NCBI GenBank assembly: GCA_913775715.1
Contig: CAJYMC010000007.1
Coordinates: 868,001 to 932,000 of the forward strand
Direction of reading: 5' to 3'
DNA: 64,000 nucleotides
Source: an uncultured Exiguobacterium sp.
GTDB taxonomy: Bacteria; Bacillota; Bacilli; Exiguobacteriales; Exiguobacteriaceae
Shown here: positions 49,098 through 64,000 of the stretch, piece by piece
Position numbering within the stretch: position 1 is the first letter of the stretch
Layout: each line of letters begins with the position of its first letter
Translations under genes and position numbers: made by a program
The notes under the pieces: model-generated
What the model saw: the letters and a program-made list of their open reading frames with translations, nothing else
The model's database searches: none
Told to the model about the DNA's origin: nothing

Positions 49098-49337
49098 ATG
49101 CGAAAGTATTTAGGATGGATCTCGATTGGCATCGTGGTTTTTACTTTTTTGACGGTTAAGCTCTTACCGTTCAATGGTTTTTGGGGTACGAATTATATGT
49201 TGGCGGGCATCGCGCTCGCTCTAGTTACCGCCATTCTTAGTCTAAAAAATATAGGAAAAATTCTTGCGCTAACACTTCTCACTTCTCTCTTGGTACTTTT
49301 TATTTTTTCAGTGATCGGTTTTTTAGCACTAGCTTGA
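49098..49337 (+). CDS. Small membrane protein, paralogue of the 58065 gene
   Basis: The 79-residue product has three hydrophobic segments: YLGWISIGIVVFTFLTVKLL, YMLAGIALALVTAILSL and LALTLLTSLLVLFIFSVIGF. A GAGGAGG site precedes the ATG. It aligns along its length with the 80-residue product of 58065-58307 (shared GWISIG, FNGFWG versus INGFWG, and IGK). Nothing is known about it; the family looks like a small Exiguobacterium or Bacillales membrane protein. Confidence 0.8.
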   Translation: MRKYLGWISIGIVVFTFLTVKLLPFNGFWGTNYMLAGIALALVTAILSLKNIGKILALTLLTSLLVLFIFSVIGFLALA

Positions 49338-49370
49338 TTGTTTCACGAAACGATGAAAAACGGTTGACGA

Positions 49371-49982
49371 TTAACTGATATCATTGCGATATTTATTCTT
49401 GAACACGTCATACGTTGCTGTATCACCGAACAAAAAGAAACAACCGCGATCATCATAGATATTCATGACGATATTTCGATCTATGTTTACGAAAAAGACT
49501 TCCGGATAGTATGTATATGTTTGACGAAATCTTGGTAGCAGCGTTGGGAAATCCTGATGGCAGATCGCTTTGATTAAACGCTTATAATCTAACGCGTTTT
49601 TGTTCGATAATAAAACGGTATATTCGGATACCTGATCTTCTTCATCAATCACTTTCTCTACGAATTTTATGTTGTATTTATCTTCTCTACGTCTTAAATG
49701 ACGAAACACTTTCGTCGCTGACTTTTGATATTTACCGCGCTCCCTTCTCACATGCACGACGAAGTAAAAAGACTCCTCTTCTCGGAATAGATCCTCAAAC
49801 AATTCGTTTGATTTATTGTACGCCTGTTTGAAGTATTCCTCGTTGATTTCATCGGAATTTTTCTTTAACTGATACAGGTCCTTTACTAAATCTACGTGGA
49901 ATACTAAATCCTTCTCGACAAAGGAACGATCAAATAAGTTCACATTCCCGAAATGTTGTTGTAAGTATTGTTCGAAGTTCAT
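49371..49982 (-). CDS. DUF3885-like protein
   Basis: The 203-residue product begins MNFEQYLQQHFGNVNLFDRS and contains FYFVVHVRRERGKYQKSATK, and FFVNIDRNIVMNIYDDRGCF followed by the C-terminal DTATYDVFKNKYRNDIS. This matches the DUF3885 pattern (R-x-F, NID...IYDDRG) that I recall from Bacillus, where many such genes sit near polymorphic-toxin or immunity genes. AAAGGAG is eight bases before the ATG. Its function is unknown. Confidence 0.75.
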   Translation of the reverse strand: MNFEQYLQQHFGNVNLFDRSFVEKDLVFHVDLVKDLYQLKKNSDEINEEYFKQAYNKSNELFEDLFREEESFYFVVHVRRERGKYQKSATKVFRHLRRREDKYNIKFVEKVIDEEDQVSEYTVLLSNKNALDYKRLIKAICHQDFPTLLPRFRQTYTYYPEVFFVNIDRNIVMNIYDDRGCFFLFGDTATYDVFKNKYRNDIS

Positions 49983-50091
49983 TCCAAAGCTCCTTTATTC
50001 TGATGAGGACAGATGTATTGTTTTGAATAACTGTTGCAGGATGGATTAATTTAATGATCGATACAACAAATCTAGAAAGGAGGATGCGAAG

Positions 50092-50559
50092 ATGATCATT
50101 GATACATTATCGAATCATCCTGAACACTTAGAAGTAGTTGCCATAATGATTCATTCCGAATTCGTTCAAAAGAAAAAAGGGACGGCACGCTATGATCAAG
50201 TAAAAGCCTTTTTAGACAAAAAACCAAGTGAACCGTATCCTATGACGTTCGTTGCCTTAGATGATGTCACGTGTATCGGAACCGTTTCCCTATTTGAAAA
50301 TGACTTGAATGAACGACCAGCCTATACGCCTTGGCTCGCTTCTTTATTCGTTGAAACAGTTTATCGGAATCAAGGAATCGCTCAGCAACTCATCAATCAA
50401 TTAATTATCTACGCTAAATCACGACAGATCCCAACAATTTATTTAAAAACAGACAACGCTTCAGCATATTATAAAAAATTCGGATGGATACTGATCGAAA
50501 CGATCGAGACGACCGATTTACCATTACATATTTTTTCTTACAATGTTCAAGAATCATAG
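50092..50559 (+). CDS. GNAT acetyltransferase
   Basis: The 155-residue product has IGTVSLFENDLNERPAYTPW and then LASLFVETVYRNQGIAQQL as the acetyl-CoA loop and IYLKTDNASAYYKKFGWILI as the C-terminal part. It matches YitH/YhjR-like GNATs found in Bacillales. AAAGGAGG before the ATG gives a strong start. Codon usage is more AT-rich than in earlier GNATs. The substrate is unknown. Confidence 0.87.
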   Translation: MIIDTLSNHPEHLEVVAIMIHSEFVQKKKGTARYDQVKAFLDKKPSEPYPMTFVALDDVTCIGTVSLFENDLNERPAYTPWLASLFVETVYRNQGIAQQLINQLIIYAKSRQIPTIYLKTDNASAYYKKFGWILIETIETTDLPLHIFSYNVQES

Positions 50560-50633
50560 TACGTTTTAGTGACCGACGACAGCAATTTTGTATAAATGAT
50601 CTACCGCAATGAAATACCAGAAAGGATGTTTTG

Positions 50634-51311
50634 ATGGATCTTAAAATTAAAAGCTATATTACAATTCCGCCTGAAACCAAAGAGTTAGATGTGCATCAAA
50701 CCTATCCGGGCTACATAAAGATGACTGATCTCATCAAAAACGATGTCTTTAATTATGCTTTTGGTCGAGCTGGCGGATATCCTGCAGGAATAGTCACTTT
50801 TTGTATTGAGGGAATGCCCCTTCCTTTTAACGCACACGTGAGCGAGCTATTCCAATTTTGGCATGCGTTGATAAAAAGTGTTGCCACGAATGATTTGCAT
50901 GACATTGAAAAGTTCGATTGGTCACTTCCATATGAAAATGAAGAAATTTCTACGCATTTCATTCTTCGATTTTTCTATCGAAAAAAACGAGTAGAATTTC
51001 ATTATCAAAAACAACACTTGGCTACTGTTTCACTAGACGTTTATAAAAGAGCAGTCGTACAGGGATTTTTAGACTTTATGTGGCATACGAATCTCGAGTT
51101 TGAGACGATCATGTATGATTCGCTAGGTGAGGAGATTGATTACGCAGCGATGCGAGAAGATGGAGGAGACGATTTATATACATGTCGCTACATCTTTTTA
51201 CAATTCATGAAAGAACTCTATCGACAAAAAAATGATGTACAACCGTTGATAAACTTCGATGTTAAGATTAGCCGTACGTTTTCTAATTTACATTATGATT
51301 TAAAGGATTAA
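50634..51311 (+). CDS. Hypothetical protein, 225 aa
   Basis: AAAGGA is seven bases before the ATG at 50634; a TTG one codon upstream is closer. The product, beginning MDLKIKSYITIPPETKELDV, is soluble and AT-rich in codon use, with aromatic-rich blocks (YAFGRAGGYPAGIVTFCIEG, HFILRFFYRKKRVEFHYQKQ). The region around residues 70-90 (LFQFWHALIKSVATNDLHD) is predicted helical. I do not recognise it; its style is like single-domain immunity or small accessory proteins in this region. Confidence 0.6.
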   Translation: MDLKIKSYITIPPETKELDVHQTYPGYIKMTDLIKNDVFNYAFGRAGGYPAGIVTFCIEGMPLPFNAHVSELFQFWHALIKSVATNDLHDIEKFDWSLPYENEEISTHFILRFFYRKKRVEFHYQKQHLATVSLDVYKRAVVQGFLDFMWHTNLEFETIMYDSLGEEIDYAAMREDGGDDLYTCRYIFLQFMKELYRQKNDVQPLINFDVKISRTFSNLHYDLKD

Positions 51312-51333
51312 GAACTTACTGGTGTGAAAGCAG

Positions 51334-51663
51334 TTATACATCTTTTTTAAATCGATCCTTCGTATTCGCGTACACACCTGCAAAAACTATAAAAAATAAG
51401 AGTAGCACGAATCCTACTATGACGAAAAATGAAGATCCAAACATCTCACTGAATGCAATCAATAATAAGCTAAAGCTGATCCCATACATGATCTTACCCA
51501 TAAATTTACATAAGGCGACTTCGTCATATGTTTCCTTTTTACTTTCTGACATCGTATTATATCCTGCAAGTAATGAGGCACCCTTTCCACGAGATAACAT
51601 GACAGCAAACACTACCATGGGAACAAAGATTACGAAATAAACGATGGATTCGTTCAAGACCAT
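51334..51663 (-). CDS. DUF3784-like membrane protein
   Basis: The 109-residue product has an N-terminal membrane helix (about 8-24), then GKGASLLAGYNTMSESKKETYD, the motif of DUF3784, and two further membrane segments (about 56-74 and 80-98). AGGAGTGC lies before the ATG. This family is common in Firmicutes, often near toxin or lantibiotic genes; its function is unknown. Confidence 0.85.
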   Translation of the reverse strand: MVLNESIVYFVIFVPMVVFAVMLSRGKGASLLAGYNTMSESKKETYDEVALCKFMGKIMYGISFSLLLIAFSEMFGSSFFVIVGFVLLLFFIVFAGVYANTKDRFKKDV

Positions 51664-51779
51664 GCACTCCTAACTCTTGTTTTAATAGATGTCGTGTTAC
51701 TTATCCATCTACGTTCTACGATCAAACTGAGTTTCATTCAAATATCATATGCACAATTTGTTGATTTTATTCACATGTA

Positions 51780-52048
51780 ATGAATAACGTACTGGATTCC
51801 ATCAGTACTGAAGATGTCTTTACTGAGCGCATCATCAAAAGTATGGATACAAATTAACGAAGCTGCTTATGAAGATATGGTAGTTGATAATACTGAAAAA
51901 AGCTTCCTCTCTGGAGTAACTATAGTCTCTGTCGAGACATCATCGATCATTACATTTCATACTATCCGAAGCTACGACAAAAGATTGAACGTTCGTAACG
52001 GAAGACGATTTCTTAGAAAGTTACATCTATCAAAAGTTTCTAGAATAA
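51780..52048 (+). pseudogene. Decayed coding remnant, family unknown
   Basis: An ATG at 51780 opens MNNVLDSISTEDVFTERIIK and stops after 25 codons. The next frame carries NEAAYEDMVVDNTEKSFLSG, a return to the first frame gives DIIDHYISYYPKLRQKIER, and a third frame gives VTEDDFLESYIYQKFLE followed by TAA. The pieces read as one acidic protein of about 85-90 residues with at least three frame changes. No ribosome site is obvious. This is a plausible but unproven pseudogene. Confidence 0.4.
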
Positions 52049-52125
52049 TAAAAAAATAAACAACGTTATTTCAATACGATTAGTGAGAATATATTGCTTG
52101 TTTCAATTATATAAAATGATTTATT

Positions 52126-52506
52126 TTACCTCTCCTCATAGATACCTTTTCTAAAGTCGTAAACCTGGCTCCATATCTTGATCTTAGTACCATTGATCGA
52201 CACCATATCCTTCGTCCACTTCACGTCTTTTATTTCGCGACAAGGATACTCCCAGTACATTCTACGTTTTTCTCCGTTCTTATTCTCCATGATACCAAGC
52301 ATCGCATAATCCACCGTCGCGCCACCATTCGCGCGGTAAAAGCGAATCGTGTACGTCTGATCGGGCGAGCTACTTTTTGAGATATACTCTTCTTTTGGTA
52401 CAACGTTGATATCAACCAAGAAAAATAGTCGATAGATCGTCCACACGACATATATCGAAAGACCCACGCCTGCTATGATTCCAGTTATCTTTAACTTTTT
52501 TCTCAC
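52126..52506 (-). CDS. DUF5412-like membrane-anchored protein
   Basis: The 126-residue product has one N-terminal membrane helix (about residues 6-30) and a beta-rich outside domain. The latter contains SSPDQTYTIRFYRANGGATV and then VKWTKDMVSINGTKIKIWSQ, matching DUF5412 (SPxxxYTxxxYxxNGGAT and INGxxI). The start is GTG with GGAG about 11 bases before. The gene is monocistronic; its function is unknown. Confidence 0.78.
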   Translation of the reverse strand: MRKKLKITGIIAGVGLSIYVVWTIYRLFFLVDINVVPKEEYISKSSSPDQTYTIRFYRANGGATVDYAMLGIMENKNGEKRRMYWEYPCREIKDVKWTKDMVSINGTKIKIWSQVYDFRKGIYEER

Positions 52507-52677
52507 TTTTCAAAACTCCAATTTTTATATATTCTTCACCATTCAAATAATTAGTCTACCCAACGCGTTCTGATAGACGGTCGTGATGCATATCTGCTTC
52601 AACACTTCTAAAAATTGAAGTAATTTATTCATACGCTTATCTGACTGATGCATCATCCAAGTTTCCTTCGATGTGCA

Positions 52678-53361
52678 CTAGCGTTGAATAAGCAGCTCGC
52701 AAATTCCAATCAACTCGTTCACTTCTCTCGCTAACAACAACTTATCGCCGTATGAATCGAGTTGAATCAAAAGATCGCAACGATTGGACGCACTTGCGAA
52801 GTCTTCTCTTAAAAAGCGTCGGACTTGTCTCGGAAATGAAACACCGTATAAGATCAACTCTTCAGTAAAACGCACACCGTTACAGACTCTCAAAATACCT
52901 TATACCACTCCAGAATCGCTAAATGATTGGTCATGGATGCTTAGATACGCGCTTCTAGACAAGGACTCTCCACGGACACTTGATAGTTTTGGATGGAGGA
53001 TGAATTTTCATAAAAATTTAGCTTGTACTCCACCTTCTGACCTTCGATTGGAATACTGTACTTCATGGATTTTTGATCGTTCACATCAAATAATCGCATC
53101 GCCTAAAGGATATATCTTTTAAGGATGTTACATCTTCCTCTATTTCTACTAAATACAAATTTTCATCGAGATGATGGAAGGAATACCATAAATCGCACAA
53201 ATGATGCTCAATCACCCTCATGATCGCTAACTGCTCACGTCTTCCTCCACGCGCGCTTCTTGTAATTAGATAAACAGTCATCTTCATCAAAGAAGAACAC
53301 TATATAAAGGCGGTGCCTCAGAAACGGAAGGGTCTTGCAGTAACTTATCTAGAAGCGACAT
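52678..53361 (-). pseudogene. Multiply broken gene, about 220 aa when rejoined; last of decayed operon
   Basis: AAAAGGAG precedes ATG at 53361 (MSLLDKLLQDPSVSEAPPLY). Good coding sequence then moves between frames: FFDEDDCLSNYKKRAWRKT, EQLAIMRVIEHHLCDLWYSF, MRLFDVNDQKSMKYSIPIEG, SLSRSAYLSIHDQSFSDSGV, then a TAA near 52907 and VCNGVRFTEELILYGVSFPR to the end at 52678. At least five lesions (four frame changes, one stop) separate these blocks, so the gene is dead. The rejoined protein is soluble; I do not recognise the family. It is 25 bp downstream of the intact WGR-like gene. Confidence 0.72.
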
Positions 53362-53386
53362 GTTTCGACTCCTTTTAATTAAAATG

Positions 53387-53965
53387 TCATTGCTCCATTT
53401 TCTCTTTTTGTCTCGTTTTCCGAAGATGAAACCATAGGAGTGTACCCATTCCAATCGACAGAATTGGAAAAAGATACGAGATGTACGATTCCTGCTGATG
53501 AATCACATGCATGAAAAAGTAACCAATAAAGCAAATAGTTCTAAGCCAAATAGGGAGGTGATCTTTACTGAGAAACGCTAAAAGCATCAGGGAAATACCC
53601 GTTCCAAATACTACAATTGGTAATACAGAGAACGGTGTCACGAACTGAAACAGACCAAGTGCCACAAGAAGATAGGCGAGCCTTGACGTCCAGCGTCGAA
53701 ACTTCTCGCGTTCCTCTCGTCCGGGTTGCATCCCGTAGATATCATCTTGTCTGTATCCTTCCGCTTTCTTCTCGGCAACTAGTTCCTCCATCCGTCGTTT
53801 CGCTTGGCGCCTAGTCGTGTACTGTTCTTCCTTCTCATCGCTGAAATCTTGATCCAGCTTCCATTGTTCGGTGACACCTTGATAGATCTGTATCGTTCGA
53901 CCATCACGATACAAGTACCAGAAATATGTAATGCCATCCACCTGTTTTCTGAGTGTTTGAATCAT
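53387..53965 (-). CDS. WGR-like domain plus membrane segments, intact member of decayed operon
   Basis: The 192-residue product starts MIQTLRKQVDGITYFWYLYR, continues with a WGR-like module (GRTIQIYQGVTEQWKLDQDF, then EELVAEKKAEGYRQDDIYG), and then has four hydrophobic segments after residue 95. The WGR resemblance (aromatic start, G-x-W, A-x-x-x-x-x-x-L-x-x-EK-x-x-GY) is my inference. GGAGG before ATG. This is the only undamaged gene among five in the operon, which suggests it may still be useful. Confidence 0.65.
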   Translation of the reverse strand: MIQTLRKQVDGITYFWYLYRDGRTIQIYQGVTEQWKLDQDFSDEKEEQYTTRRQAKRRMEELVAEKKAEGYRQDDIYGMQPGREEREKFRRWTSRLAYLLVALGLFQFVTPFSVLPIVVFGTGISLMLLAFLSKDHLPIWLRTICFIGYFFMHVIHQQESYISYLFPILSIGMGTLLWFHLRKTRQKEKMEQ

Positions 53966-53966
53966 G

Positions 53967-54271
53967 TTAACCCTCCAAATCTGCTATGGCATCTTTTGGA
54001 TCCAGCTCAAGTCCGACGAGCTCTTGTCCCCAGTTCAATCCACAGTACAGTCCATCGTCGATCATGTTCGGTAACCAGCCATCTATGAATAAATCCAAAT
54101 CCAAGCGAATCAAGTGATAGTCCGCCCATTCCTTCGTCTGTAACGCCTTCGCCGCTGCTTCCGTCGATAAGAATAACAGGACGTCTGTCTCGTCTTGAGA
54201 TCTGTCTGTAAGAAGTCTATCTCTTGTAGTTTTTCTTCTGTGACGCCAGGTAATCCGATTTGAACCGTCAT
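53967..54271 (-). pseudogene. DUF2750-like gene, one frameshift
   Basis: AAGGAG lies eight bases before ATG at 54271; the product starts MTVQIGLPGVTEEKLQEIDF. Near 54190 the frame changes and continues with LLFLSTEAAAKALQTKEWAD, LDLFIDGWLPNMIDDGLYCG and ELVGLELDPKDAIADLEG, ending TAA. The rejoined protein of about 100 residues resembles DUF2750 (inferred from the layout of aromatic and Leu/Asp positions). It could be a single deletion or insertion. The stop is 1 bp before the next ATG, so translation was coupled. Confidence 0.68.
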
Positions 54272-54302
54272 CTATATGACTCCTTCTTATACATTTTTAA
54301 TT

Positions 54303-54821
54303 TTAATTTTTGTGATTAAAGTTCTTTCCTTCAGGATAGAGTCCGGTTAAACGTCTCCCGTCATGAACTTTAACCTGCCCCATCCGAAGCCGCGTCACGC
54401 CATGCTGCTTTTTAAAATATTCAATGACGGGTTCAACGATATTAGACGGCTCCTAGATATGAAGGACGAATTCGATCGCTCCTGGACCATATTCATCTTC
54501 AACAAAATACCCGCTACCGATTTCACAAAGAAATCCGTTGAGGTCTTCTTCAATGTTCGAACGCTGCTCAAAGATGACGTTATACTCTATATCCTGACAA
54601 AAGATCTCGACGACAACTTCGTGGTAATCGATTTCTTTTTCTTTCTCAGCTACGAGCTCTCGAATGTAGGCATCTAAATTAAAAAAGCGCGAGAACTTTT
54701 GCTCGCTCAGTGGTTTTTCCAAGCGTTCTCCCATGATTCCTTGAAACGTATAGAGTGTCCGTCCATCCTTCTCGAACAGTAAAAAATGATTCTGACCGTC
54801 GAATTGATTAATGAGTTACAT
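54303..54821 (-). pseudogene. WGR-like gene interrupted by two nonsense codons
   Basis: One continuous frame from ATG 54821 encodes LINQFDGQNHFLLFEKDGRT, MGERLEKPLSEQKFSRFFNL, LVAEKEKEIDYHEVVVEIFC and on to VKVHDGRRLTGLYPEGKNFN, but codon 2 is TAA and a TAG follows FVLHI near 54455. Both could be Gln codons (CAA, CAG) changed by C to T. Rejoined length is about 172 residues. The N-terminal half resembles the WGR-like part of the intact gene at 53387. An internal ATG at 54734 gives a shorter open piece that could still be translated. Confidence 0.68.
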
Positions 54822-54837
54822 GACGTTCCTACCGTTT

Positions 54838-55121
54838 TTATAGATACGCGAACCATTGTCCATTGAGCTGGCGAATCACAGTATCGCTTGGTAACTGTCG
54901 TCGTAGTCGATTTGCCCAGTCCGCCCAAAGATCATAGGCGAAGTGTTCTTCGTTCGAGAGCAGATAAATCGTTGTACCATCATGGCCGACAATCACGATG
55001 GTCGTCTCTCTTCCGGATAAACGAATCGATCCTCTAAGACACGTGCTTTTCGGTGCGTCGTTTCGACCTCTCGTTGAATCGACAGATGATCGGAATACGA
55101 AAACATGAGCAGTTCGTTCAT
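54838..55121 (-). pseudogene. Small hypothetical gene with frameshift, first of decayed operon
   Basis: ATG at 55121 behind GGGGAAA begins MNELLMFSYSDHLSIQREVE and loses frame near 55030. The other frame continues GSIRLSGRETTIVIVGHDGT, IYLLSNEEHFAYDLWADWAN and RQLPSDTVIRQLNGQWFAYL then TAA at 54838. Rejoined it is about 93 residues of soluble protein; the family is unknown. The stop lies 16 bp before the next gene start, and no terminator is seen between the five genes. Confidence 0.65.
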
Positions 55122-55280
55122 TTTATATTTCCCCATTTCATGACATAAAGGAAATGCCCTTTTCAAAAATCACTCCATACCATATATTATATGTTTCATA
55201 ATACATTTTTAGGAATTTTTATTTTTTATTTCTTCTATTGCTTTGTTAAGAAGTTTTGATATGAAAGAAGCGATCCATAC

Positions 55281-55312
55281 AAAAAACCCTTCTTTTTAGA
55301 CTCAAAAAGAAG
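55281..55312 (-). terminator. Terminator of the ankyrin gene
   Basis: CTTCTTTTT and AAAAAGAAG pair with a 6-base loop; the minus transcript ends in GGTTTTTT. It lies 19 bases after the ankyrin gene stop at 55331. Confidence 0.75.
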
Positions 55313-55330
55313 AGAACGACAATCGATCCA

Positions 55331-56113
55331 TCAATGCACTCCATTGAAGAGCTTGAGGATTTTTTTATTTTTATACGTCTTCGCATAATCAATGGCCGTT
55401 TTTCCATTGGCATCCTGATGATTCAGATCTGCTCCATGTTGTAGTAATTCGTGAACGACCTTAGCATGATCATAACTAACTGCTAACATCAGCGGCGTCG
55501 TGTGACTATCAAGCGGGTTTTCAGCTTCCACTTCCGCCTGTCCCTCAATCAGTGCTTTAACAGCTTTGGCATTTCCTTCTCCCGCCGCAATGTGTAATGG
55601 GGTGAATCCATGTACCGTGCGCAAATTCACATCTGCCCCGGCTTGAAGTAATACGTTGATACACTTCACTTTATTTTCTTGTGCCGCATAGTGGAGAGGC
55701 GCGTATCCATCTCCATCCCCATCGAATTGATTGATGTATTGTGTTTCACGAGCGAGCGCCTTAAGAATTTTTGAATTGCCAGTTTTACTCGTAACCACGT
55801 GCAACGCATTATACCCATCCGTATTAATCTCGAATGATACTCCTTGCTGAATGATTTCAATCGCAATCTCCGTTTGATTATCTAAAAGCGCGATATGTAA
55901 GGGCGAGAACCCTTCCCGATTCTGTTTTTCAAGATCAGCACCGCTCTCAATCAAAAGCCGGACAATATCCAGGTATCCTTCTTGAATCGCCCAGTGTAGC
56001 GGACTGTATCCTTCCTCATCCAGCATATCAATATCTGCTCCGCTTCTGATCGCTTTTCGGACCTTCTTTAGCTCCCCTTGAAAAGCATAGTCATTCAATG
56101 CATATTTTGACAT
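55331..56113 (-). CDS. Ankyrin-repeat protein
   Basis: The 260-residue product (ATG at 56113, AGGAGGAG upstream) is almost wholly ankyrin repeats. About seven units of the form GYSPLHWAIQEGYLDIVRLL-ESGADLE, GYAPLHYAAQENKVKCINVL and GFTPLHIAAGEGNAKAVKAL are visible from residue 30 on. Repeats of this kind bind proteins. There is no signal peptide or enzyme domain, so it is probably an intracellular adaptor or immunity-like protein. AT-rich codon use fits the accessory region. Confidence 0.9.
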   Translation of the reverse strand: MSKYALNDYAFQGELKKVRKAIRSGADIDMLDEEGYSPLHWAIQEGYLDIVRLLIESGADLEKQNREGFSPLHIALLDNQTEIAIEIIQQGVSFEINTDGYNALHVVTSKTGNSKILKALARETQYINQFDGDGDGYAPLHYAAQENKVKCINVLLQAGADVNLRTVHGFTPLHIAAGEGNAKAVKALIEGQAEVEAENPLDSHTTPLMLAVSYDHAKVVHELLQHGADLNHQDANGKTAIDYAKTYKNKKILKLFNGVH

Positions 56114-56204
56114 ATGTAACGCTCCTCCTAACACAACTAAAGAATGATATACCCATATCTCCTATTACCTCTTACATTTATAGTTTTTACAAATTAACCT
56201 TTTA

Positions 56205-56750
56205 CTATGAACTGCTTGTTCCGTCTGAAGCAGGGTGATCTACTGTAAGGATCGTCTTATAGATTTCTTTAAAAATGCTCTCTCTTTCTTGTCGGTTCGG
56301 TTTCGGGTTATGCACACTATATTCCCAACTCTTCTCAAATTTTCCCTTTCTATAATAGACCGCTGTGATATAGCTATTACTACCGGTTTCAATCTCATCC
56401 TTATATGACATATCCGGATTAACAAAAGGTTCGTACGATTTTTTACTCCCGATAAAGAAAAAAGGAACTCCGGCTTTTTTGTAGACAGCAGCATATTCTT
56501 TTTTAGATGCTGCTTGTAAATTCTTCTTGTCTATGAAAACGGCGTCATACTTTTTTAGATCACCTTTTAAATCAGACAGTGATATCTTTTCGACTTTCGG
56601 TTCAGTCGTGACTGTCGGAAAACGTCCTACAACAGCAACGTTTAGATCAATTATTTCATGTATTGGCTTATTCTGAAATTCGCTATGTTCGCTACATGCG
56701 GAGAGAAAAATACTTCCGAATAGGAACGAGCCGATTAAGGCTTTATTCAT
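56205..56750 (-). CDS. Putative lipoprotein
   Basis: The 181-residue product has a lipoprotein signal: MNKALIGSFLFGSIFLSACS, with lipobox LSAC ending at Cys19. The mature domain is basic and hydrophilic with a DUF-like strand pattern (LNVAVVGRFPTV, KKYDAVFIDKKNLQ, AGVPFFFIGSKKS), reminiscent of a Rossmann-like fold; no family name is safe. AAAGGAGA lies about 12 bases before the ATG. It is not in an obvious operon. Confidence 0.7.
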   Translation of the reverse strand: MNKALIGSFLFGSIFLSACSEHSEFQNKPIHEIIDLNVAVVGRFPTVTTEPKVEKISLSDLKGDLKKYDAVFIDKKNLQAASKKEYAAVYKKAGVPFFFIGSKKSYEPFVNPDMSYKDEIETGSNSYITAVYYRKGKFEKSWEYSVHNPKPNRQERESIFKEIYKTILTVDHPASDGTSSS

Positions 56751-56813
56751 TTCACTCTACATCTCCTTTATTCAAGAAACTATAAAACATCTCGCTTGAT
56801 TGATTTTAATCTA

Positions 56814-56842
56814 CAAAAAAGAATGCCTCTATAGACATTCTT
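56814..56842 (-). terminator. Terminator
   Basis: On the minus transcript AAGAATGTC pairs with GAGGCATTCTT around TATA, followed by TTTTTT. It lies just after the stop at 56849. Confidence 0.75.
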
Positions 56843-56848
56843 CGTGAT

Positions 56849-57349
56849 TCAAGACCATTTTTCTTCAGCATCCATCCAACAATTGTTTTTTAAATCAAGA
56901 GAGTCATCACTATCGTGCAAAGTAAAGTAAGATGGAAGATCTAGTGACGCTCCACCAGCTTTTTCCCAACATCTTTTAAACCACTGTGCAAAAACGTTCT
57001 GTTCTCTCGGAATTAATATTTCTTCATTTTTCTCATGAAAATCAAAAAAAGTATCGAGTTGACTGTCGTTGATTTGGTAATATTTGACTTCTTGTAATAC
57101 ATCTTCGCTCCCAGCAAAAACAGTTGAATCGTTTCCTTCGTTAAATACTTCATTTGCTTCTTTATCCATTGAGAACATGATGACCGAAAGTTCAAATCTA
57201 GTCGGTTCAATGAATGCTGTGAAGTCCAGTACTTCGATGTCCTTTGAGAACGGATAAGAAAAGATTTTCTTGAGTTGATCTACCACTAAACCTGACTGCT
57301 TTTCAAGATGGATCTCAATTGAATCAATATAGTTTTCGACTGTAAACAT
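56849..57349 (-). CDS. Hypothetical soluble protein, immunity-like style
   Basis: GGAGGT lies about eight bases before the ATG at 57349. The 166-residue acidic product begins MFTVENYIDSIEIHLEKQSG and ends with the block FAQWFKRCWEKAGGASLDLP and YFTLHDSDDSLDLKNNCWM. The W-F-x-x-CW-x-x-AGG pattern with HD recalls small conserved proteins found near toxin systems, but I cannot name a family. Codon use is AT-rich. Confidence 0.65.
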   Translation of the reverse strand: MFTVENYIDSIEIHLEKQSGLVVDQLKKIFSYPFSKDIEVLDFTAFIEPTRFELSVIMFSMDKEANEVFNEGNDSTVFAGSEDVLQEVKYYQINDSQLDTFFDFHEKNEEILIPREQNVFAQWFKRCWEKAGGASLDLPSYFTLHDSDDSLDLKNNCWMDAEEKWS

Positions 57350-57389
57350 GATAAGTACCTCCAAGCATGAATCTATCAATTTATGTTAT

Positions 57390-57578
57390 TTATTGCTTAA
57401 TATTTTCACTGTGTTTCTCTTGAAGTCGTCTCTCTAGAACTAATACATATAGTACAGCAACCAATACTCCTATTATTCCTGGCAAAACAGCAACGATGGG
57501 ATCCATCAAATATGCGAATGGAATTAAATACGTAAACAACATCTTGATTCCATATGAAACCAACACAGATGTCAGCAA
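57390..57578 (-). CDS. Small two-helix membrane protein, start uncertain
   Basis: The 62-residue product has two hydrophobic segments (about residues 4-22 and 29-47) and a charged tail (LERRLQEKHSENIKQ). The TTG at 57578 lacks a ribosome site. In the same frame the sequence extends upstream as EKRTTTLVL to TTTGGAG near 57610, but no ATG, GTG or TTG lies in frame there; one extra A after the TTG at 57604 would give a normal start (MKKRTTT). It may be an intact gene with an odd start or one with a small deletion. Confidence 0.45.
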   Translation of the reverse strand: MLTSVLVSYGIKMLFTYLIPFAYLMDPIVAVLPGIIGVLVAVLYVLVLERRLQEKHSENIKQ

Positions 57579-58064
57579 AACTAAGGTTGTAGTCCGCTTT
57601 TCAATACTCCAAAAAAATTGACGTCTTTATTTCTCTACCTATTGTATACCGAGCCAAGACAACATCTTCAAATCTCCCTTATTTGTAGCTAATACTTGAC
57701 CACCATCACTCTACCATACGACCTTCTATTTGTATTAAAAAGTAAGTTTATTTTAATGATTTTTACCAAAAACTCTTGTCATTATAAGAAGGATCAGTCT
57801 GATTAAAATTTACGAAGGATGTAAAAGGGGATAATCAAATTTAACGTGTTAAGTAACTGCAAAAGAATTTTTTTAAGCTGTTTATACAAATAATTTTCTT
57901 TTTTGTAAAAAGATTTCGACTGGCTAGAGGCAGTGATTCATTTCAAACTAGCACCAATAAATTTCTAATACATATAGATGGAAAGACAAACTTCTAATCA
58001 TTTTAGTATCACTCTTTTATGTATACTAATAATGGAATTTATACAAATAAAAGGAGGTATTTTC
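57579..58064. other. AT-rich non-coding stretch
   Basis: This interval holds no convincing gene. It is AT-rich with runs such as TTTTTT and AAATTTCT. Its right end carries AAGGAGG for the gene at 58065. The left end holds the possible lost start of the small membrane gene. No palindrome or strong hairpin longer than about 8 bp was found by eye. Confidence 0.5.
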
Positions 58065-58307
58065 TTGAGAGCAAAACTTGGCTGGATTTCTATCGGATTA
58101 ATGATTCTTACTTTCTTGGTACTTTTTACATTCCCGATCAACGGTTTTTGGGGCGATGCCATCCTCATTGGTGGTCTGGTCCTTGCATTATTAGCTGCTA
58201 TCTTTAGTAATCGAGGTATAGGTAAAGTGTTAGCCTTTATTTTAATGACAGTTCTTTTAATTTTGTTTGTACTATCTGTCTTGAATTTTTTAGGGATCTT
58301 CGCATAA
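58065..58307 (+). CDS. Small membrane protein, paralogue of the 49098 gene
   Basis: TTG at 58065 follows AAGGAGGT with six to seven bases spacing and gives 80 residues: RAKLGWISIGLMILTFLVLF, then FPINGFWGDAILIGG and LAFILMTVLLILFVLSVLNF. It aligns along its full length with the protein at 49098 (GWISIG, NGFWG, IGK near matching positions). The frame is open further upstream, but without a ribosome site. No family name or function is known. Confidence 0.78.
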   Translation: MRAKLGWISIGLMILTFLVLFTFPINGFWGDAILIGGLVLALLAAIFSNRGIGKVLAFILMTVLLILFVLSVLNFLGIFA

Positions 58308-58582
58308 AATCGAATCGATCGTACAGGGTATCGAATGTTTAACCTCTTACAAAGATATGACTGTCTAAGAAGAATGCTCCTCTAGAGTATATGCAAGAGA
58401 GAAAACGTTCTTATACATTCAGTAGATCGTCGCGCAACTTTTTCATCATAACTTTATCTGAGAGTATGCTCTTCACATCCTCCATTATATCTTCGGTCGC
58501 TTTTAGCGTTTTGACCTTTTAGGTTCAAAGTATTTACTTATTCACTGCAAAAGTCAGTTTTTTTAAATACACCTTCTCATTT

Positions 58583-59560
58583 TTACTCAAGAACCGACTT
58601 AAACTTTCCTTCATGAATGACATCTGAAACGGGTGTTAATGAAAACTCTTGCAGTGTCTGCCCATATTTTTTTTGTCGAAAATCTGCCATTAACTCCGTT
58701 CCTAAGCTATAAATCGTCAATCGAGGAATCTCCTTCACTTCATTTCCAATGCTAAGTTCATCATAGCTTAAGGAGTTGTTCTTAACCTGTTCGAGTATCT
58801 TCTTTTTATCGCTGGCAGCTATCTGCTCCGTTTTTATAAGGGGCGCTTTAGGATAAAGTTCTTGCGCAAACACCTCCGCTTTACCTTCGAATATGAGATA
58901 GTCGATAGAACTTGGTTGTCTGATTTCAGGATGTTCGTTCACTATGGAATGATTATACTCATGTGCAACAACGTACTTTAATATCTCATGCGTATACTCT
59001 TCGCCTAACATAATCACCATACTACCATCGCTCATCGCAAAACCCATCAGCCCGCTCGTCGCCTTTGCGGCGTATCGATGCTCTTCCGACAATGGTAGCA
59101 TCAGAATAATCTTATCTTTACCAGGAAGGTGGTCAGCTGATTTCTGGAGTGCCTCATGAACAGATTTCATATTTTCTTTCTCTTCATGCATCAAACGTTT
59201 CGTCAATCTTTTTAAATCATTCAAATAGGAAGTGGCGGTAAACACGTCTTTGAACCCATTAAAATCAAGAAAGATATCCTGCTCTTTCTGAATGCGATCC
59301 AGCTCCCGACGGACGGTTTTATCGAAGATTTGCTGGAGGTCCTCGTCCGTGACGTTTGTGTCCTTCATCTTTTTCTGAACTTTTGTGATGTAGTCGATAT
59401 AGGCTGGGTACAACGTAATGATTTTTGCATGCTGGTCTTTCGCTAGTTTAACTTCTCGAATAGTAGACTTTGGTTTCTCATTCGGCTGCGTCGATTCGGA
59501 TACACACCCTGATACACAACAAATGAACATTGAAAAAAAGAACGCTATACATATTCTCAA
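58583..59560 (-). CDS. DUF2268-like lipoprotein metalloprotease
   Basis: TTG at 59560 behind AAGGAGGT gives 325 residues. The N-terminus MRICIAFFFSMFICCVSGC is a lipoprotein signal with lipobox VSGC. The mature part has an HExxH zinc site VVAHEYNHSIVNEHPEI near residue 203 and then YLIFEGKAEVFAQEL, the third-ligand Glu of DUF2268-type metalloproteases. It is expected on the outer face of the membrane. Its substrate is unknown. Confidence 0.85.
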   Translation of the reverse strand: MRICIAFFFSMFICCVSGCVSESTQPNEKPKSTIREVKLAKDQHAKIITLYPAYIDYITKVQKKMKDTNVTDEDLQQIFDKTVRRELDRIQKEQDIFLDFNGFKDVFTATSYLNDLKRLTKRLMHEEKENMKSVHEALQKSADHLPGKDKIILMLPLSEEHRYAAKATSGLMGFAMSDGSMVIMLGEEYTHEILKYVVAHEYNHSIVNEHPEIRQPSSIDYLIFEGKAEVFAQELYPKAPLIKTEQIAASDKKKILEQVKNNSLSYDELSIGNEVKEIPRLTIYSLGTELMADFRQKKYGQTLQEFSLTPVSDVIHEGKFKSVLE

Positions 59561-59934
59561 AATTATTTACCTCCTTAAATATAGGTTTACTAGGAGTGTT
59601 CTCTAGTCGCTTTGACGCTCGTCAAGAAAATTCACTTTTATGTCATAAAAGTCATCGTCGTACTAAGATCAATTCACGTTATTTTTATTTACAGATCGTG
59701 CATTAAACATCATGAGGAAGTGATATCTCATTTTAGTCAGTAGTGGAATATTCCTACATTCCTAAAAACCTTATTATTTTATATATTGCTTACAAAAGGA
59801 TTATATAGATTTATTTTCCATATATCTATATAAAAAAAGGTCCACTTCATTTATAGCCCATTTCTTAAGAACCGATAGCAGTATCTACGTATGCATTTGT
59901 TTTTCTATAATTCACATCGTTTGGGGTGATAAAT
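59561..59934. other. AT-rich upstream region of the nuclease-helicase gene
   Basis: This 374-bp interval has no convincing gene. It is very AT-rich (TTATTATTTTATATATTGC, TATATCTATATAAAAAAAGG), consistent with a weakly defined promoter of the gene at 59935. TTTGGGGTGA just before the ATG is its ribosome site. I see no clear operator. Confidence 0.5.
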
Positions 59935-61749
59935 ATGACAGTTGGGTGGAGTGGTACGATTCAAGATTTTTTACAGATCGATCAACATCAATTTTTAAAG
60001 AGTTTACAGCATTCAATTCCAGATGCTTCAGATAGTCAATTACGCGCTTGGATCGATTCGTACCAATGCCTCGTTGACTTATTTCAAGAAGTACCTGAGT
60101 TGAATGCGCAACTTTTATTTGAGTACCAGCTATTTCGTGGTGGCGGTCGGCGACCTGATATTGTGCTACTGGTTAATGATCAAGTCCTTGTCATTGAATG
60201 TAAAAGTTATCATCAAATTTCGGATGGGGAATGCATCCAGACCTCACTTTACGTTCGCGACTTGGAACACTATCATTCAGCCATTCAACTGCAACCCGTA
60301 ACCGTCTCCGGTATATTATTTTTAACGAAGGACAGTCGTGATCATGTCCATTTTCATGAATCCTTTAATATTTTCATTGCAGCGAAATATGGCTTATTAA
60401 AAATCCTAAGGCGGTTAGCAGCTAAACAACAGTCACCTGTCTTAAGTATTCATGATATGTTACAAGGCTACTATTCTCCATCCCCTTCAATGCTCGAAGC
60501 AGCTAGTGCAATTATGAAAAACGAACCGTTACCCCGTGTTCGTGCATTAGATAGTAGTAATTTTGAAATAATTCATCACTCGCTTCAGCAGATTATTCAA
60601 CAAGCTAAGGATCATAACGAGCATCACCTTGTTCTCGTTACTGGGGAACCTGGTGCAGGGAAAACGTATTTAGGATTACGCTTAGCTCATGAGTATGAAT
60701 ATGCCGTATACCTTTCAGGAAACGGTCCGTTAGTTGATGTCTTGCAGCATTCCCTTCAAAACAGTACATTCGTTCAGCGGTTATATAACTACAAGATGGA
60801 CTACATCAAACACGGTCGTGTTCCGCATGAACATATTATAATCTTTGATGAAGCGCAACGTGCTTGGGATCAAAATCAAGTGAATACATCGTTTGAACGT
60901 TCTCCATATCCAGCACCGAATATGAGCGAACCGGATATCATTATGGAAATCGCAACAACAAATAAAAAGTGGAGTGTGACGATCGGATTGATCGGGGAAG
61001 GGCAAGAAATTTATAGAGGAGAAGAAGGCGGTATCGTATTATGGAATCACGCTTTAGAAAATAAGAATGTCATTGTTCATGGTAAGTTCGAAGCGACAAC
61101 TTTTAGACATGCACTGCACGTACGAACAACGGAGACATTACACCTCGATACGTCCCTGCGTACACATGCTGCGCAGACCTATAGTCAGTTTGTCATTCAA
61201 TTGATTCAAGGAGAGATAAAAGCGGCAGCTCGCCTTCTTGAAAACCTTGATTATTCTCGCTTCCATCTTCGGATTACACGTCATTTAGAAAAAGCAAAGT
61301 ATGTAGCGCGTCATCTCTATTCAGATGACTCTAAAACAGCCGGTGTCGTATGCGCAGGTGGAGCGGATCATCAAAAACAAACACCGGTCTTACCTAGAAA
61401 TGAGCGGTACGAACGACCTTCTAAAATCGCACAATATTTTACCGTTCCTACGTCTGACTACTACTGCAAAACATTACAGTATTCGATAACCGAGTTTCAA
61501 TCGCAAGGTCTTGAATTAGATTTTGCCATTTTAGAATGGGATAACGATTTTTATTTACAAAATGGGATATGGACTGGAAAGCATTTTCAACGATCTGTTA
61601 AAGATCCGCTTCAAATTAAGCGCAATGCTTATCGTGTCAATTTGACGAGAGGGCGAGATGGACTAATTATTTATATTCCTGAAAAACCTGAGTTAGAAGA
61701 AACATGGCATACACTTAAACACGTGTTACGTATTCAAGAACTGATATAG
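59935..61749 (+). CDS. PD-(D/E)XK nuclease fused to DUF2075-like P-loop helicase domain
   Basis: The product of 604 residues has an N-terminal nuclease-like domain: E63, then RRPDIVLLVN with D75, and VLVIECKSY with E88 and K90, the D-x(12)-E-x-K pattern. A helicase/ATPase domain follows: VTGEPGAGKTYLG near 240 (Walker A), IIIFDEAQRAWDQ near 303 (Walker B), and VNLTRGRDGLIIYIPEKP at the end. This layout matches DUF2075 proteins. Nuclease-helicase proteins of this kind are often antiviral (Nhi of staphylococci, as I recall). GGGGTGA is before the ATG; a GTG at 59926 lies inside that site. Confidence 0.88.
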   Translation: MTVGWSGTIQDFLQIDQHQFLKSLQHSIPDASDSQLRAWIDSYQCLVDLFQEVPELNAQLLFEYQLFRGGGRRPDIVLLVNDQVLVIECKSYHQISDGECIQTSLYVRDLEHYHSAIQLQPVTVSGILFLTKDSRDHVHFHESFNIFIAAKYGLLKILRRLAAKQQSPVLSIHDMLQGYYSPSPSMLEAASAIMKNEPLPRVRALDSSNFEIIHHSLQQIIQQAKDHNEHHLVLVTGEPGAGKTYLGLRLAHEYEYAVYLSGNGPLVDVLQHSLQNSTFVQRLYNYKMDYIKHGRVPHEHIIIFDEAQRAWDQNQVNTSFERSPYPAPNMSEPDIIMEIATTNKKWSVTIGLIGEGQEIYRGEEGGIVLWNHALENKNVIVHGKFEATTFRHALHVRTTETLHLDTSLRTHAAQTYSQFVIQLIQGEIKAAARLLENLDYSRFHLRITRHLEKAKYVARHLYSDDSKTAGVVCAGGADHQKQTPVLPRNERYERPSKIAQYFTVPTSDYYCKTLQYSITEFQSQGLELDFAILEWDNDFYLQNGIWTGKHFQRSVKDPLQIKRNAYRVNLTRGRDGLIIYIPEKPELEETWHTLKHVLRIQELI

Positions 61750-61751
61750 CA

Positions 61752-61800
61752 TTCATCAAAGAAGTCTACATCTGTACAAGATATAGACTTCTTTGATGAA
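61752..61800. terminator. Perfect 17-bp hairpin between convergent defence genes
   Basis: TTCATCAAAGAAGTCTA (61752-61768) is the exact reverse complement of 61784-61800, with a 15-base loop. It follows the nuclease-helicase stop directly and lies 60 bp before the stop of the convergent SRA-HNH gene. Confidence 0.85.
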
Positions 61801-61860
61801 CTTTAGAAGCCCATCAGGTTATTCGTTTCGTTTAAAATTATCTTAATAAATTCTTCTGAA

Positions 61861-62691
61861 TCAAAAAGGATTTTCCTTTGCATCAATTTTATCTATTAAT
61901 TCCTGATTATACGTACTACCATCTATTCCGCGATGAATGCGAGCATGACAGTTCGGACAAATTGCTGCGACATGTTCAGGATGATCCGGGCCACCATCCG
62001 ATAATTTATACATGTGATGTACTTCAAGTGATGATCCCGAACTCGCTTCAAATGGTTCAGGTTGTTCACATGCTTCGCATATTCCTGCTGCCCTCTTTCG
62101 CGCATATACTTTAATCGCTTCTGATCGTTTTCTGACCTTTATTTGTTTGACTTGAATCGACTCATCTCCTGTCGACGTATCTTGAAGAGCCAATGTTTTT
62201 AAATTTTCAAGCGAATCTTCAATTATTACACTACTCTCCAGATGATGTTCCGACTCGAGTTGATCCTGCTTCATAATCGTAGCTGATTCAAAAATAAATT
62301 GGATGATCTCCCGTGGATGCCCGTCTCGATCGAGCGCTTGTTTTAGTTCATAATCAATTAACGTTAGCTGATCATCAAATCGATATAAACCATTTTGTTC
62401 CCGATGAAAAAGTAAAACATCTTTTGAATGATTGACATGATCACGTATCGCTTTATTCCCCATTGTAAACGTTTGATCGCCAACTTGCCCTTCACCACTG
62501 TACATAAACAATGTCTTTTCTTCATTCCAACCGTCCGAATATCCATACTGTGTACCGCTTGCCCCGGAAAAGATAAAAATAATTGATTCTTTCGCTGAAG
62601 CACTAATGCCACGTTGTCGGTTTCCGCCAAACTGATCGTGTATTTCAGCACGTTTATAGTGCTTTCCTGGAGTAAATGAAATGGATAACAT
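61861..62691 (-). CDS. SRA-like domain fused to HNH endonuclease, type IV restriction-like
   Basis: The 276-residue product has an N-terminal SRA/YDG-like domain of the ScoMcrA type: IHDQFGGNRQRGISASAKES, IIFIFSGASGTQYGYSDGW, then MYSGEGQVGDQTFTMGNKAI and RDHVNHSKDVLLF. After a linker comes an HNH nuclease: AAGICEACEQPEPFE with CxxC, VHHMYKLSDGGPDHPEHVAA and CPNCHARIHRG, the H-N-H and second CxxC. Such fusions cut DNA carrying modified bases or phosphorothioates. AAGGGAG is upstream of the ATG. It is convergent with the nuclease-helicase gene. Confidence 0.9.
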   Translation of the reverse strand: MLSISFTPGKHYKRAEIHDQFGGNRQRGISASAKESIIFIFSGASGTQYGYSDGWNEEKTLFMYSGEGQVGDQTFTMGNKAIRDHVNHSKDVLLFHREQNGLYRFDDQLTLIDYELKQALDRDGHPREIIQFIFESATIMKQDQLESEHHLESSVIIEDSLENLKTLALQDTSTGDESIQVKQIKVRKRSEAIKVYARKRAAGICEACEQPEPFEASSGSSLEVHHMYKLSDGGPDHPEHVAAICPNCHARIHRGIDGSTYNQELIDKIDAKENPF

Positions 62692-62764
62692 AGACTGTCT
62701 CCCTTATTTTAAAAGTCTAAACATTTTAATCTTTATAATTCGATCTCATACAGATTAAATCTCA

Positions 62765-63493
62765 TCATCTGCCGATATGGACAGACGTAAAGACGAACTT
62801 ATCATAACGATGGCGTGAAAACGAATACTCGAATGGTTTTCCGTTACCAAGGAATACGACTTGTTCCACTTCGATGACGGGATCGGTCTCCTCGTTCCCG
62901 AGATATTCATGATCCCATTGATTCGGCTTGTCTGCCCGAATCATCTTATGCGAGCTCGTGATCGTGTAACCGAGTTCTTCTTGGATATACCGGTAAATCG
63001 AACTATCAAGAACTTCTCGCGTCACTCCGGTAATCAATGAAGACGGCATAAATGTATGTTCGATCACGTATGGTTCGTCGTCAACATATCGAACACGCCG
63101 TATCTCATAGACAGGATCGGTCTTCTCAATCATCAGATGGCGTGCGACCTCGGCTTCTGGAAAACGGACCTCGAACTGAAGCACTTCACTTCTGACGGCC
63201 CGCTCCCCGAGTAGCTTCGTCAACCCTTGTGACTCTTTGTTTAACACATTGATTCGTCCTTGGGAAAAGCTTGACGGTAAAATGAACGTCCCTTGTCCTC
63301 GTTGCCGATAGATAATCCCCTCAAGTACGAGGATTTCTAAAGCACGTTTCATTGTCATCCGGCTTACCTCAAACTCTTCTGCTAGTTGAATCTCGTCTGG
63401 CATCGCTTCTTCCACATTGTATCCGCCATGAAGAATCCGTTCTCGTAATTCATCTGCAATTTTTTCATACTTTGGTTTCTTTTTATTAGACAT
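62765..63493 (-). CDS. GntR/HutC-family regulator with UTRA domain
   Basis: The 242-residue repressor has an N-terminal GntR winged HTH (YEKIADELRERILHGGYNVE, and VSRMTMKRALEILVLEGIIY) and a UTRA ligand domain with YEIRRVRYVDDEPYVIEHTF. This class (TreR, BglR, YydK) senses phosphorylated sugars. Its 16-bp operator-like palindrome lies at 63506-63521. It is directly downstream of the GH1 gene on the same strand, so it probably controls beta-glucoside use. Confidence 0.9.
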   Translation of the reverse strand: MSNKKKPKYEKIADELRERILHGGYNVEEAMPDEIQLAEEFEVSRMTMKRALEILVLEGIIYRQRGQGTFILPSSFSQGRINVLNKESQGLTKLLGERAVRSEVLQFEVRFPEAEVARHLMIEKTDPVYEIRRVRYVDDEPYVIEHTFMPSSLITGVTREVLDSSIYRYIQEELGYTITSSHKMIRADKPNQWDHEYLGNEETDPVIEVEQVVFLGNGKPFEYSFSRHRYDKFVFTSVHIGR

Positions 63494-63505
63494 GACAACA
63501 CCCCA

Positions 63506-63521
63506 TGTATAGACATATACA
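63506..63521 (-). promoter_or_regulatory. GntR/TreR-like operator
   Basis: TGTATAGACATATACA has perfect arms TGTATA/TATACA around GACA. It lies 13 bp upstream of the regulator start, in a very AT-rich promoter stretch. Confidence 0.65.
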
Positions 63522-63575
63522 TATAATATAACAAAAAATAAGGATCAGGGCTAGATATACCCCGATCCTCTCTTC

Positions 63576-64000
63576 TTATCCTTCAAATCCATTTTCTTCG
63601 ATGAGATGCTTGAACCAGTAACCACTCTTTTTTACTGTACGCGTTTGATTCGTCAAATCGACACCTACGAAACCATATCGGTTCTTATAGGCATTACTCC
63701 ACGACCAATTGTCCATGAACGTCCAAAGGTGATACCCTTTGACGTTCGATCCTTCCTCTAGAGCTTGATGCACCCATTTCAGATGTTCCGCGATAAAATC
63801 AATCCGGTAATCATCCTGGATACTACCGTCCGCGTCTCGGTAGCGTTCTTCTCCTTCCACTCCCATCCCGTTTTCTGAAATGAAGCACTCGATGTTTCCA
63901 TAATTCTCACGTAAGTTCGTCAGAATGTCATATACACCCTTTTCGTAAATTTCCCAACCACGATGTCGATTCATTTTGCGTCCCGGCATCTCATAATAAT
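63576..64000 (-). CDS. GH1 6-phospho-beta-glucosidase-like enzyme, C-terminal part
   Basis: The frame is open to the window edge, so this is a C-terminal fragment of about 141 residues; an internal ATG at 63989 is not the start. The family-1 nucleophile motif appears as CFISENGMGVEGE (ITENG type), and WTFMDNWSWSNAYKNRYGFV is the aglycone-binding region near the end. The residues YWFKHLIEENGFEG close the protein. It hydrolyses phosphorylated beta-glucosides imported by a PTS in the family. The start lies outside. Confidence 0.88.
   Translation of the reverse strand, partial: YYEMPGRKMNRHRGWEIYEKGVYDILTNLRENYGNIECFISENGMGVEGEERYRDADGSIQDDYRIDFIAEHLKWVHQALEEGSNVKGYHLWTFMDNWSWSNAYKNRYGFVGVDLTNQTRTVKKSGYWFKHLIEENGFEG

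Follow-up and report, generated by a model that had tools for sequence, protein, structure and literature searches.

A gene in the window (the whole 64,000-nucleotide stretch of Exiguobacterium DNA analysed here, whose numbering is used throughout) encodes one polypeptide in which a nuclease precedes a P-loop helicase, and it adjoins a gene for a modification-dependent nuclease. An earlier note, made from the sequence, took the fusion for a known or suspected type of antiviral enzyme and the two neighbours for a possible two-gene system. The locus raises the question of what family the fusion protein belongs to, and whether it depends on its neighbour, merely shares an island with it, or can act in defence by itself.

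The nuclease-helicase protein

Gene calls were made with a simple longest-ORF script, and the features of the locus are collected in Table 1. The open reading frame given in the earlier note was confirmed, and its start is supported: an alternative GTG start at 59926 falls within the GGGGTG hexamer, and the spacing of that hexamer favours the ATG.

Table 1. Features of the nuclease-helicase locus and its flanks, in window positions
Feature	Position	Strand	Basis
Nuclease-helicase gene (604 aa), PDC-S41 family	59935..61749	+	ORF and profile match
Shine-Dalgarno-like GGGGTG	59923..59928	+	Sequence; 6 nt upstream of ATG 59935
PD-(D/E)XK nuclease domain, about residues 1-165	59935..60429	+	Structure model and structural matches
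Nuclease motifs E63, R73-x-D75, E88-x-K90	60121..60204	+	Alignment
Q102-x3-Y106, RecB-like QxxxY helix motif	60238..60252	+	Alignment
Walker A GEPGAGKT, residues 237-244	60643..60666	+	Sequence and alignment
Walker B / motif II DEAQRAW, residues 305-311	60847..60867	+	Sequence and alignment
SF1 motif V TEFQSQGLELD, residues 519-529	61489..61521	+	Sequence and alignment
SF1 motif VI NAYRVNLTRGRDG, residues 564-576	61624..61662	+	Sequence and alignment
17-bp perfect inverted repeat between convergent genes, probable two-way terminator	61752..61800	.	RNA fold
SRA-HNH modification-dependent (type IV) restriction enzyme, 276 aa	61861..62691	-	PDB sequence matches, PADLOC
Flank: GntR/UTRA regulator adjoining GH1 glucosidase gene	62765..63493	-	Pfam; same flank in G026, G029
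Flank: DUF2268 predicted protease gene	58583..59560	-	Pfam; same flank in G026, G029, G036

The conserved residues of the N-terminal half were assessed in an alignment of 95 rows, which includes five near-identical prophage copies. E63, D75, E88 and K90, the motif set that the earlier note had named, are identical in all 92 rows having the position (three are gapped), R73 is conserved in 91 of the 92, and Q102 and Y106 are identical in 93 of 93; we take the last two to form the RecB-like QxxxY helix motif. An AlphaFold2 model of the whole protein had a mean pLDDT of 86.5, and a model of residues 1-192 alone reached 94.6. In the latter, strands 58-62, 76-80 and 83-90 surround the motif residues and helix 97-113 holds Q102 and Y106. 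Its top PDB matches by Foldseek and VIA-align were mostly PD-(D/E)XK nucleases, among them Can2 (Z 8.2, 132 residues at 3.6 A), Cdn1, EndoMS, McrC (Z 6.9), Hjc (Z 5.8) and NucC. The Z scores are modest (8.2 at best), but the matches agree along the list and the motif is invariant, so there can be little doubt that the N-terminal domain is a PD-(D/E)XK nuclease by its modelled fold and its conserved E...D...ExK, with a predicted activity. The profile matches were below threshold: no Pfam nuclease family rose above its cut-off in the window protein (HSDR_N 18.8 against 25.1 bits, NERD 16.0 against 22.1), HSDR_N and NERD matched 13 and 17 of 53 family members, respectively (E up to 0.1), and a PDB sequence search returned no convincing match for the single protein or for the N-domain profile.

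The C-terminal half is a helicase of the kind the earlier note called DUF2075-type. Pfam SLFN-g3_helicase (PF09848), presumably the former DUF2075, covers residues 231-582 (E 5.2e-52; 177.7 bits against a cut-off of 24). The SF1 helicase motifs are complete and conserved in the 95-row alignment, with G237, K243 and T244 of Walker A present in 94 of 94 rows having the position. Walker A, DEAQRAW and the late arginine-rich motif are all in place as first described; the last, NxYRVxLTRxRxG, is one that we assume, as with the other motif names, to be SF1 motif VI. Human SLFN11 is the closest structural match of the helicase half (Z 14.7, 266 residues at 3.5 A), Foldseek also returned SLFN14, RecD, Dna2 and Pif1, and the full-family profile gave weak matches to SLFN5 (E 0.004) and SLFN11 (E 0.04) among PDB sequences.

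Since the helicase resembles SLFN11 and SLFN14 and the nuclease resembles Can2/Card1, which can also cut RNA, we considered whether the protein might be an RNA-targeting, Schlafen-like abortive-infection enzyme. We regard this as improbable, because the N-terminal domain is of the PD-(D/E)XK type with a RecB-like QxxxY motif and sub-threshold HSDR_N and NERD matches, and because the partner genes described below act on DNA. The helicase fold is common to SLFN11, SLFN14 and the window protein, whereas the N-terminal nuclease of the latter differs in being PD-(D/E)XK. No Schlafen-core family is among its Pfam matches, and its N-domain matches PD-(D/E)XK chains, although absence from such lists excludes nothing.

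By profile comparison the protein is a member of PDC-S41, a family of defence candidates. The PADLOC model of that name (PADLOC-DB 2.0.0, PDLC05014), a database candidate to which the window protein has full-length homology, was matched end to end (E 2.6e-115, residues 3-590 to model positions 4-632 of 657), and all 53 members of alignment A2 match it. The model carries a single-gene label, which would imply silence on type IV or NUDIX partners. PADLOC models for AbiO and Nhi reach only the part of the protein near Walker A and B. Nhi of Staphylococcus epidermidis, with which the earlier note had compared the fusion, is likewise a single-gene nuclease plus helicase, and a passage of PMC12904381 describes DNA nicking and unwinding by it, linked to the phage SSB. 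A place in a family of defence candidates is supported, while the likeness to Nhi itself is architectural only: membership of Nhi was rejected, as the Nhi model matches residues 219-318 alone (E 8e-6) with no sign of full-length homology.

Hachiman (HamAB) has a helicase of another family. Its helicase is reported to be the sensor and its nuclease the effector, in two proteins rather than the one seen here. An Evansella contig has, near its PD-(D/E)XK version, an apparently broken gene (L031:6772-8397) in which a helicase of this Schlafen-3 family is joined to a GIY-YIG domain that matched below threshold (E 9e-4), and related pieces lie near L036 and L098. The nuclease head of the Schlafen-3 helicase family seems exchangeable.

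The adjoining restriction gene and a variable site

The adjoining modification-dependent nuclease recognised in the earlier note is, from its sequence matches, a TagI/ScoMcrA-like SRA-HNH type IV enzyme. Residues 14-132 match ScoMcrA (PDB 5zmm) and 166-256 match TagI (PDB 6ghc); Pfam HNH scored 33.7 bits, above its cut-off, and SAD_SRA 17.7 bits, below its cut-off of 30.7; and PADLOC mREase_IV was matched at E 3e-17. Cutting of 5mC- and 5hmC-containing DNA is predicted for it. According to a passage of PMC12707154, TagI cuts 5mC and 5hmC DNA and restricts the hmC-containing phage T4gt. The window enzyme has the SRA and HNH domains in common with TagI and ScoMcrA, its specificity is predicted, and it is encoded by a gene separate from that of the nuclease-helicase. 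A PF00145 search of the window genome returned no C5-cytosine methylase match, against 10 of 14 control genomes with one, which is as expected if the adjoining 5mC-dependent nuclease is active.

The two genes converge on the inverted repeat between them (-27.9 kcal/mol, z -8.0 by RNA fold), which probably acts as a two-way terminator; it was absent from the output of a simple terminator scan. Genes converging on so strong a hairpin are expected to form no operon and to yield separate transcripts, and we ruled out an operon from the orientation. SRA-HNH genes were found in 25 of 348 Bacilli genomes (28 matches), and the helicase gene is adjacent in four of the 25 (G000, G081, G350 and, decayed, G026). 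Most of the SRA-HNH genes seen are thus without the helicase, and other helicase copies have a different type IV gene or none in that position, so the two genes do not form an obligate two-gene system.

The composition of the locus is that of its AT-rich surroundings, as first remarked: GC is 33-44% in 1-kb segments from 49 kb on, compared with 49% for 1-48.9 kb. Third-position GC is 0.33 in the nuclease-helicase gene and 0.28 in the SRA-HNH gene, where four genes at 44-48 kb have 0.54, and these low values are consistent with an origin of both genes elsewhere. Numerous small orphan genes lie in the AT-rich part (49000-64000), as does an ankyrin-repeat gene at 55331-56134. Several genes of this stretch are common to G026 and G036 at 81-93% identity, so it is not all recent.

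To place the pair within the genus, 19 genomes (the window's own included) were searched for the flanking DUF2268 gene, and four have a close copy, 86-100% identical. These four show a presence/absence polymorphism. The pair is intact in G000; both genes are decayed in G026, where the helicase is reduced to residues 1-30 and about 560-604 and the SRA-HNH gene has stops and a frame break; G036 retains a helicase-start scar of 19-20 residues; and in G029 the GntR-DUF2268 gap is 612 bp with neither gene between (tblastn, E up to 1). With intact, decayed, scarred and empty versions in four genomes, the two genes seem to be gained and lost together here. Among 38 genomes of the window's taxonomic family there are three intact copies (G000, G007 and G016). 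The G007 copy is carried by the Exiguobacterium aurantiacum plasmid pCXA and is convergent with McrC-McrB, 115 bp away; around the G016 copy no type IV query was matched within 10 kb. On another Exiguobacterium plasmid, pMC1, which also has resistance genes, there is a remnant of the helicase-gene end (L028:8001-8144, residues 556-603).

Distribution and neighbours of the family

The relatives compared were the best 80 of at least 179 confirmed on genome contigs, a selection that leans toward the window's side of the family, together with 11 viral contigs and plasmid and phage records. Identity to relatives is as low as 26%. They come from many bacterial phyla and include two archaeal records, and by eye the tree does not track taxonomy; its last version omits ten focal loci (near copies, fragments and long branches), and FastTree placement of L047 and L159 is unsure. 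Full-length copies are rare, occurring in 6 of 398 Bacilli genomes. Plasmid copies exist, and plasmid searches with two other family members gave no further full-length records. The 11 relatives on viral contigs were found by alignment search and none by single-protein search; on five of these contigs the copies, 56-57% identical, adjoin amidase and holin genes (by eye) with no type IV query match near. In the prophages L119-L123 a 155-aa gene follows the nuclease-helicase ahead of amidase-like and holin-like genes. Genes of 67-92 aa that by eye encode Xre-like regulators lie directly upstream on the same strand in L053, L058, L059, L070, L075 and L080, all of the larger clade. A further, unverified record labelled 'Bacteriophage sp.' (L029, MT836127.1) has the nuclease-helicase, a NUDIX gene and, by eye, a DNA methylase and a Vsr-like nuclease, so it may be a bacterial defence island.

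The RecB-like QxxxY and SF1 motifs, with the Foldseek matches to RecD, Dna2 and Pif1, could also belong to a RecB/Dna2-like nuclease-helicase of DNA repair or recombination with no specific defence role. Such a role is very unlikely for a gene that is rare, decayed or absent in relatives, carried on plasmids and prophages, placed beside restriction genes and matched in full by PDC-S41. The plasmid and prophage-like copies, the taxonomy-discordant tree, the variable site, the PDC-S41 match and the type IV neighbours lead us instead to a mobile defence gene. We favour, with moderate confidence, a mobile PDC-S41 anti-phage nuclease-helicase that is able to act alone and is often teamed with type IV restriction.

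Copies were then compared that had been sought without regard to context in three overlapping sets (398 Bacilli, 394 genomes of one family and 398 Bacillota). Nine had usable flanks, the window uncounted, eight being intact and that of G630 decayed. Five of the nine (G007, G081, G350, G477 and G630) have a type IV enzyme next to them, either SRA-HNH or McrBC, and four of these five also have a NUDIX gene; with the queries used, no type IV gene was found near G016, G366, G634 and G824. McrBC is next door in G007 and is followed by HNH and NUDIX genes 5-6 kb away in G477. In G081 (L155), NUDIX, SRA-HNH and helicase genes follow one another on the same strand, the two junctions being a 4-bp overlap and a 0-bp gap. 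G350 (L159) has SRA-HNH, NUDIX and a SauUSI-like gene (by eye, a PLD-like start plus helicase), and in G630 (L156) a transposase-like gene stands between NUDIX and SRA-HNH on one side and the decayed helicase on the other, and a phosphorothioate-DNA restriction enzyme is also present. At L159:4762-8036 the SauUSI-like gene, a small MazG-like pyrophosphohydrolase gene (by eye) and the NUDIX gene stand in a row beside the nuclease-helicase and SRA-HNH genes. Partial copies were seen on two contigs of about 3.5 kb, that of G830 with a fragment matching the phosphorothioate-DNA enzyme and that of G804 without.

The wider set of genome contigs, plasmids and phages adds other partners and orders. 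Evansella (L031) has SRA-HNH 112 bp downstream with NUDIX beyond; Niallia (L027) carries McrB and McrC together with an HNH-NUDIX fusion that overlaps the beginning of the helicase gene; on a Peptostreptococcaceae contig (L047) the genes are NUDIX, helicase, McrB and McrC; Methanobrevibacter (L042) has SauUSI-like genes, DUF3427 and NUDIX; and Phycicoccus (L086) has GmrSD 180 bp upstream. An adjacent NUDIX without a type IV gene was found in L041, L029 and L053, and a NUDIX-like gene lies 1.7 kb away in L074. The pairing with SRA-HNH that the earlier note proposed to look for in other genomes therefore recurs in part: it is present in L031, L155, L156, L159 and the decayed G026, but McrBC, SauUSI-like, GmrSD or no such gene stands in its place in others. 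PDC-S41 copies adjoining type IV enzymes in several Bacillota, often with NUDIX as well, suggest a partnership. The link with type IV enzymes is recurrent but not universal in the family, and other copies stand alone. In the 65-row clade that makes up the larger part of the family seen, one row has a type IV neighbour with the queries used, against 9 of 28 other rows (p 6e-5), a comparison that is biased toward the window's part, since the type IV queries were taken from the neighbourhoods found first, and that leaves out GmrSD (L086), HNH genes of unassigned kind beside L057 and L107, and an HNH gene 6.4 kb from L068, all in the larger clade.

The partners could form a true multi-gene system, with the type IV enzyme as sensor, the helicase-nuclease as effector and NUDIX in one functional unit. 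The tight one-strand array of L155, the same order in L156, the three kinds of gene in other orders in L159, L031, L153, L047 and L027, and the decay of both window genes in G026 would fit such a unit. We nevertheless consider it rather unlikely: copies without a type IV gene near are found in prophage, in G016, G366, G634 and G824 and, with the queries used, in nearly all of the larger clade, few SRA-HNH genomes have the helicase adjacent, and gene order varies.

A somewhat less doubtful alternative, which we hold possible without thinking it probable, is that these are independent defence genes sharing an island with no functional link. Defence genes cluster in islands anyway, and family members also have type I R-M, McrBC and a GIY-YIG helicase in their vicinity. 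PADLOC models, moreover, were matched no less often by distant genes than by the nearest ones (188 families for 104 distant proteins against 172 families for 150 nearest ones). Against this, SRA-HNH lies near three of the nine copies (the window uncounted), for which the chance, as a rough figure, is about 2e-10 from a background of 28 SRA-HNH matches in 348 genomes, and about 2e-4 if islands raise it 100-fold. NUDIX is also enriched at the nearest position: among nearest neighbours with Pfam results (150 of 156) it was commonest (5), followed among non-redundant ones by HNH (4), and both are outside the 25 families listed for 104 genes more than 5.5 kb away, so that each occurs at most once there. 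As PADLOC matches overall are not enriched near the gene, the excess concerns particular partners rather than defence genes at large.

NUDIX was seen in one of 31 SRA-HNH loci scanned (about 1.5 kb per side), that of G081, and thus seems tied to the nuclease-helicase and less to SRA-HNH. Matches of the NUDIX proteins to MutT and NudG models fall below the cut-offs; E. coli NudG acts on 5-methyl-dCTP. No NUDIX gene is adjacent in the window. The best NudG-like gene of the window genome has 48% identity to the Evansella NUDIX and is probably housekeeping, as no type IV query match lies within about 8 kb and metabolic genes surround it (by eye).

A possible mode of action

From these associations we infer an anti-phage action, a substrate, a synergy and a NUDIX role along the following lines. 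For the mobile nuclease-helicase that we favour, the Schlafen-3 SF1 motor would probably load where phage infection gives rise to a DNA end, a gap or a replication structure, and feed DNA to the N-terminal PD-(D/E)XK nuclease. Where a type IV enzyme (SRA-HNH or McrBC) is present, it would cut phage DNA with modified cytosines, its cuts could serve as entry points for the helicase-nuclease, and both together may degrade the genome. NUDIX, where present, would probably hydrolyse modified dNTPs, sparing the host's own DNA.

A more elaborate proposal, which we put forward tentatively and believe in less than in the single mobile gene, is a three-part system against modified bases. It would consist of an exchangeable type IV enzyme (SRA-HNH, McrBC, SauUSI-like or GmrSD), the nuclease-helicase and a MutT/NudG-like NUDIX. 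The type IV enzyme would cut modified DNA and the helicase-nuclease degrade it from the cuts, while NUDIX would clear modified dNTPs and keep host DNA unmodified, or else starve the phage of them.

A link between NUDIX and type IV enzymes has already been glimpsed, as a legend in PMC7641849 places MutT homologues beside SauUSI homologues; the passages of that paper that we consulted join a type IV enzyme with NUDIX and make no mention of a Schlafen-3 helicase-nuclease. The combination of a type IV enzyme with a Schlafen-3 nuclease-helicase was not found in titles and abstract beginnings or in passages of PMC11090510, PMC7641849 and PMC12707154, and terms for it were not found in the portion of the CoCoNuTs census (PMC11090510) searched. 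An earlier description elsewhere is possible, for example in a bacterial Schlafen preprint cited in an excerpt of PMC12839542. CMoRE (PMC12923530), a single-gene type IV enzyme, was compared and set aside as distinct from the window protein, being a GIY-YIG protein whose text makes no mention of 'helicase'. In a literature text search, DUF2075 was not found together with 'defence' or 'GIY-YIG'. The name PDC-S41 was not found in the literature searched, which was mostly without subscription papers and preprints, and the family may have been tested under a different name.

PDC-S41 has a wide distribution among bacteria and occurs in archaeal records as well, yet it is unnamed in that literature. 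The company of type IV enzymes and nucleotide hydrolases hints at what may trigger PDC-S41 and at how the host may protect itself. If this is true, the restriction of modified DNA would be linked with control of the nucleotide pool.
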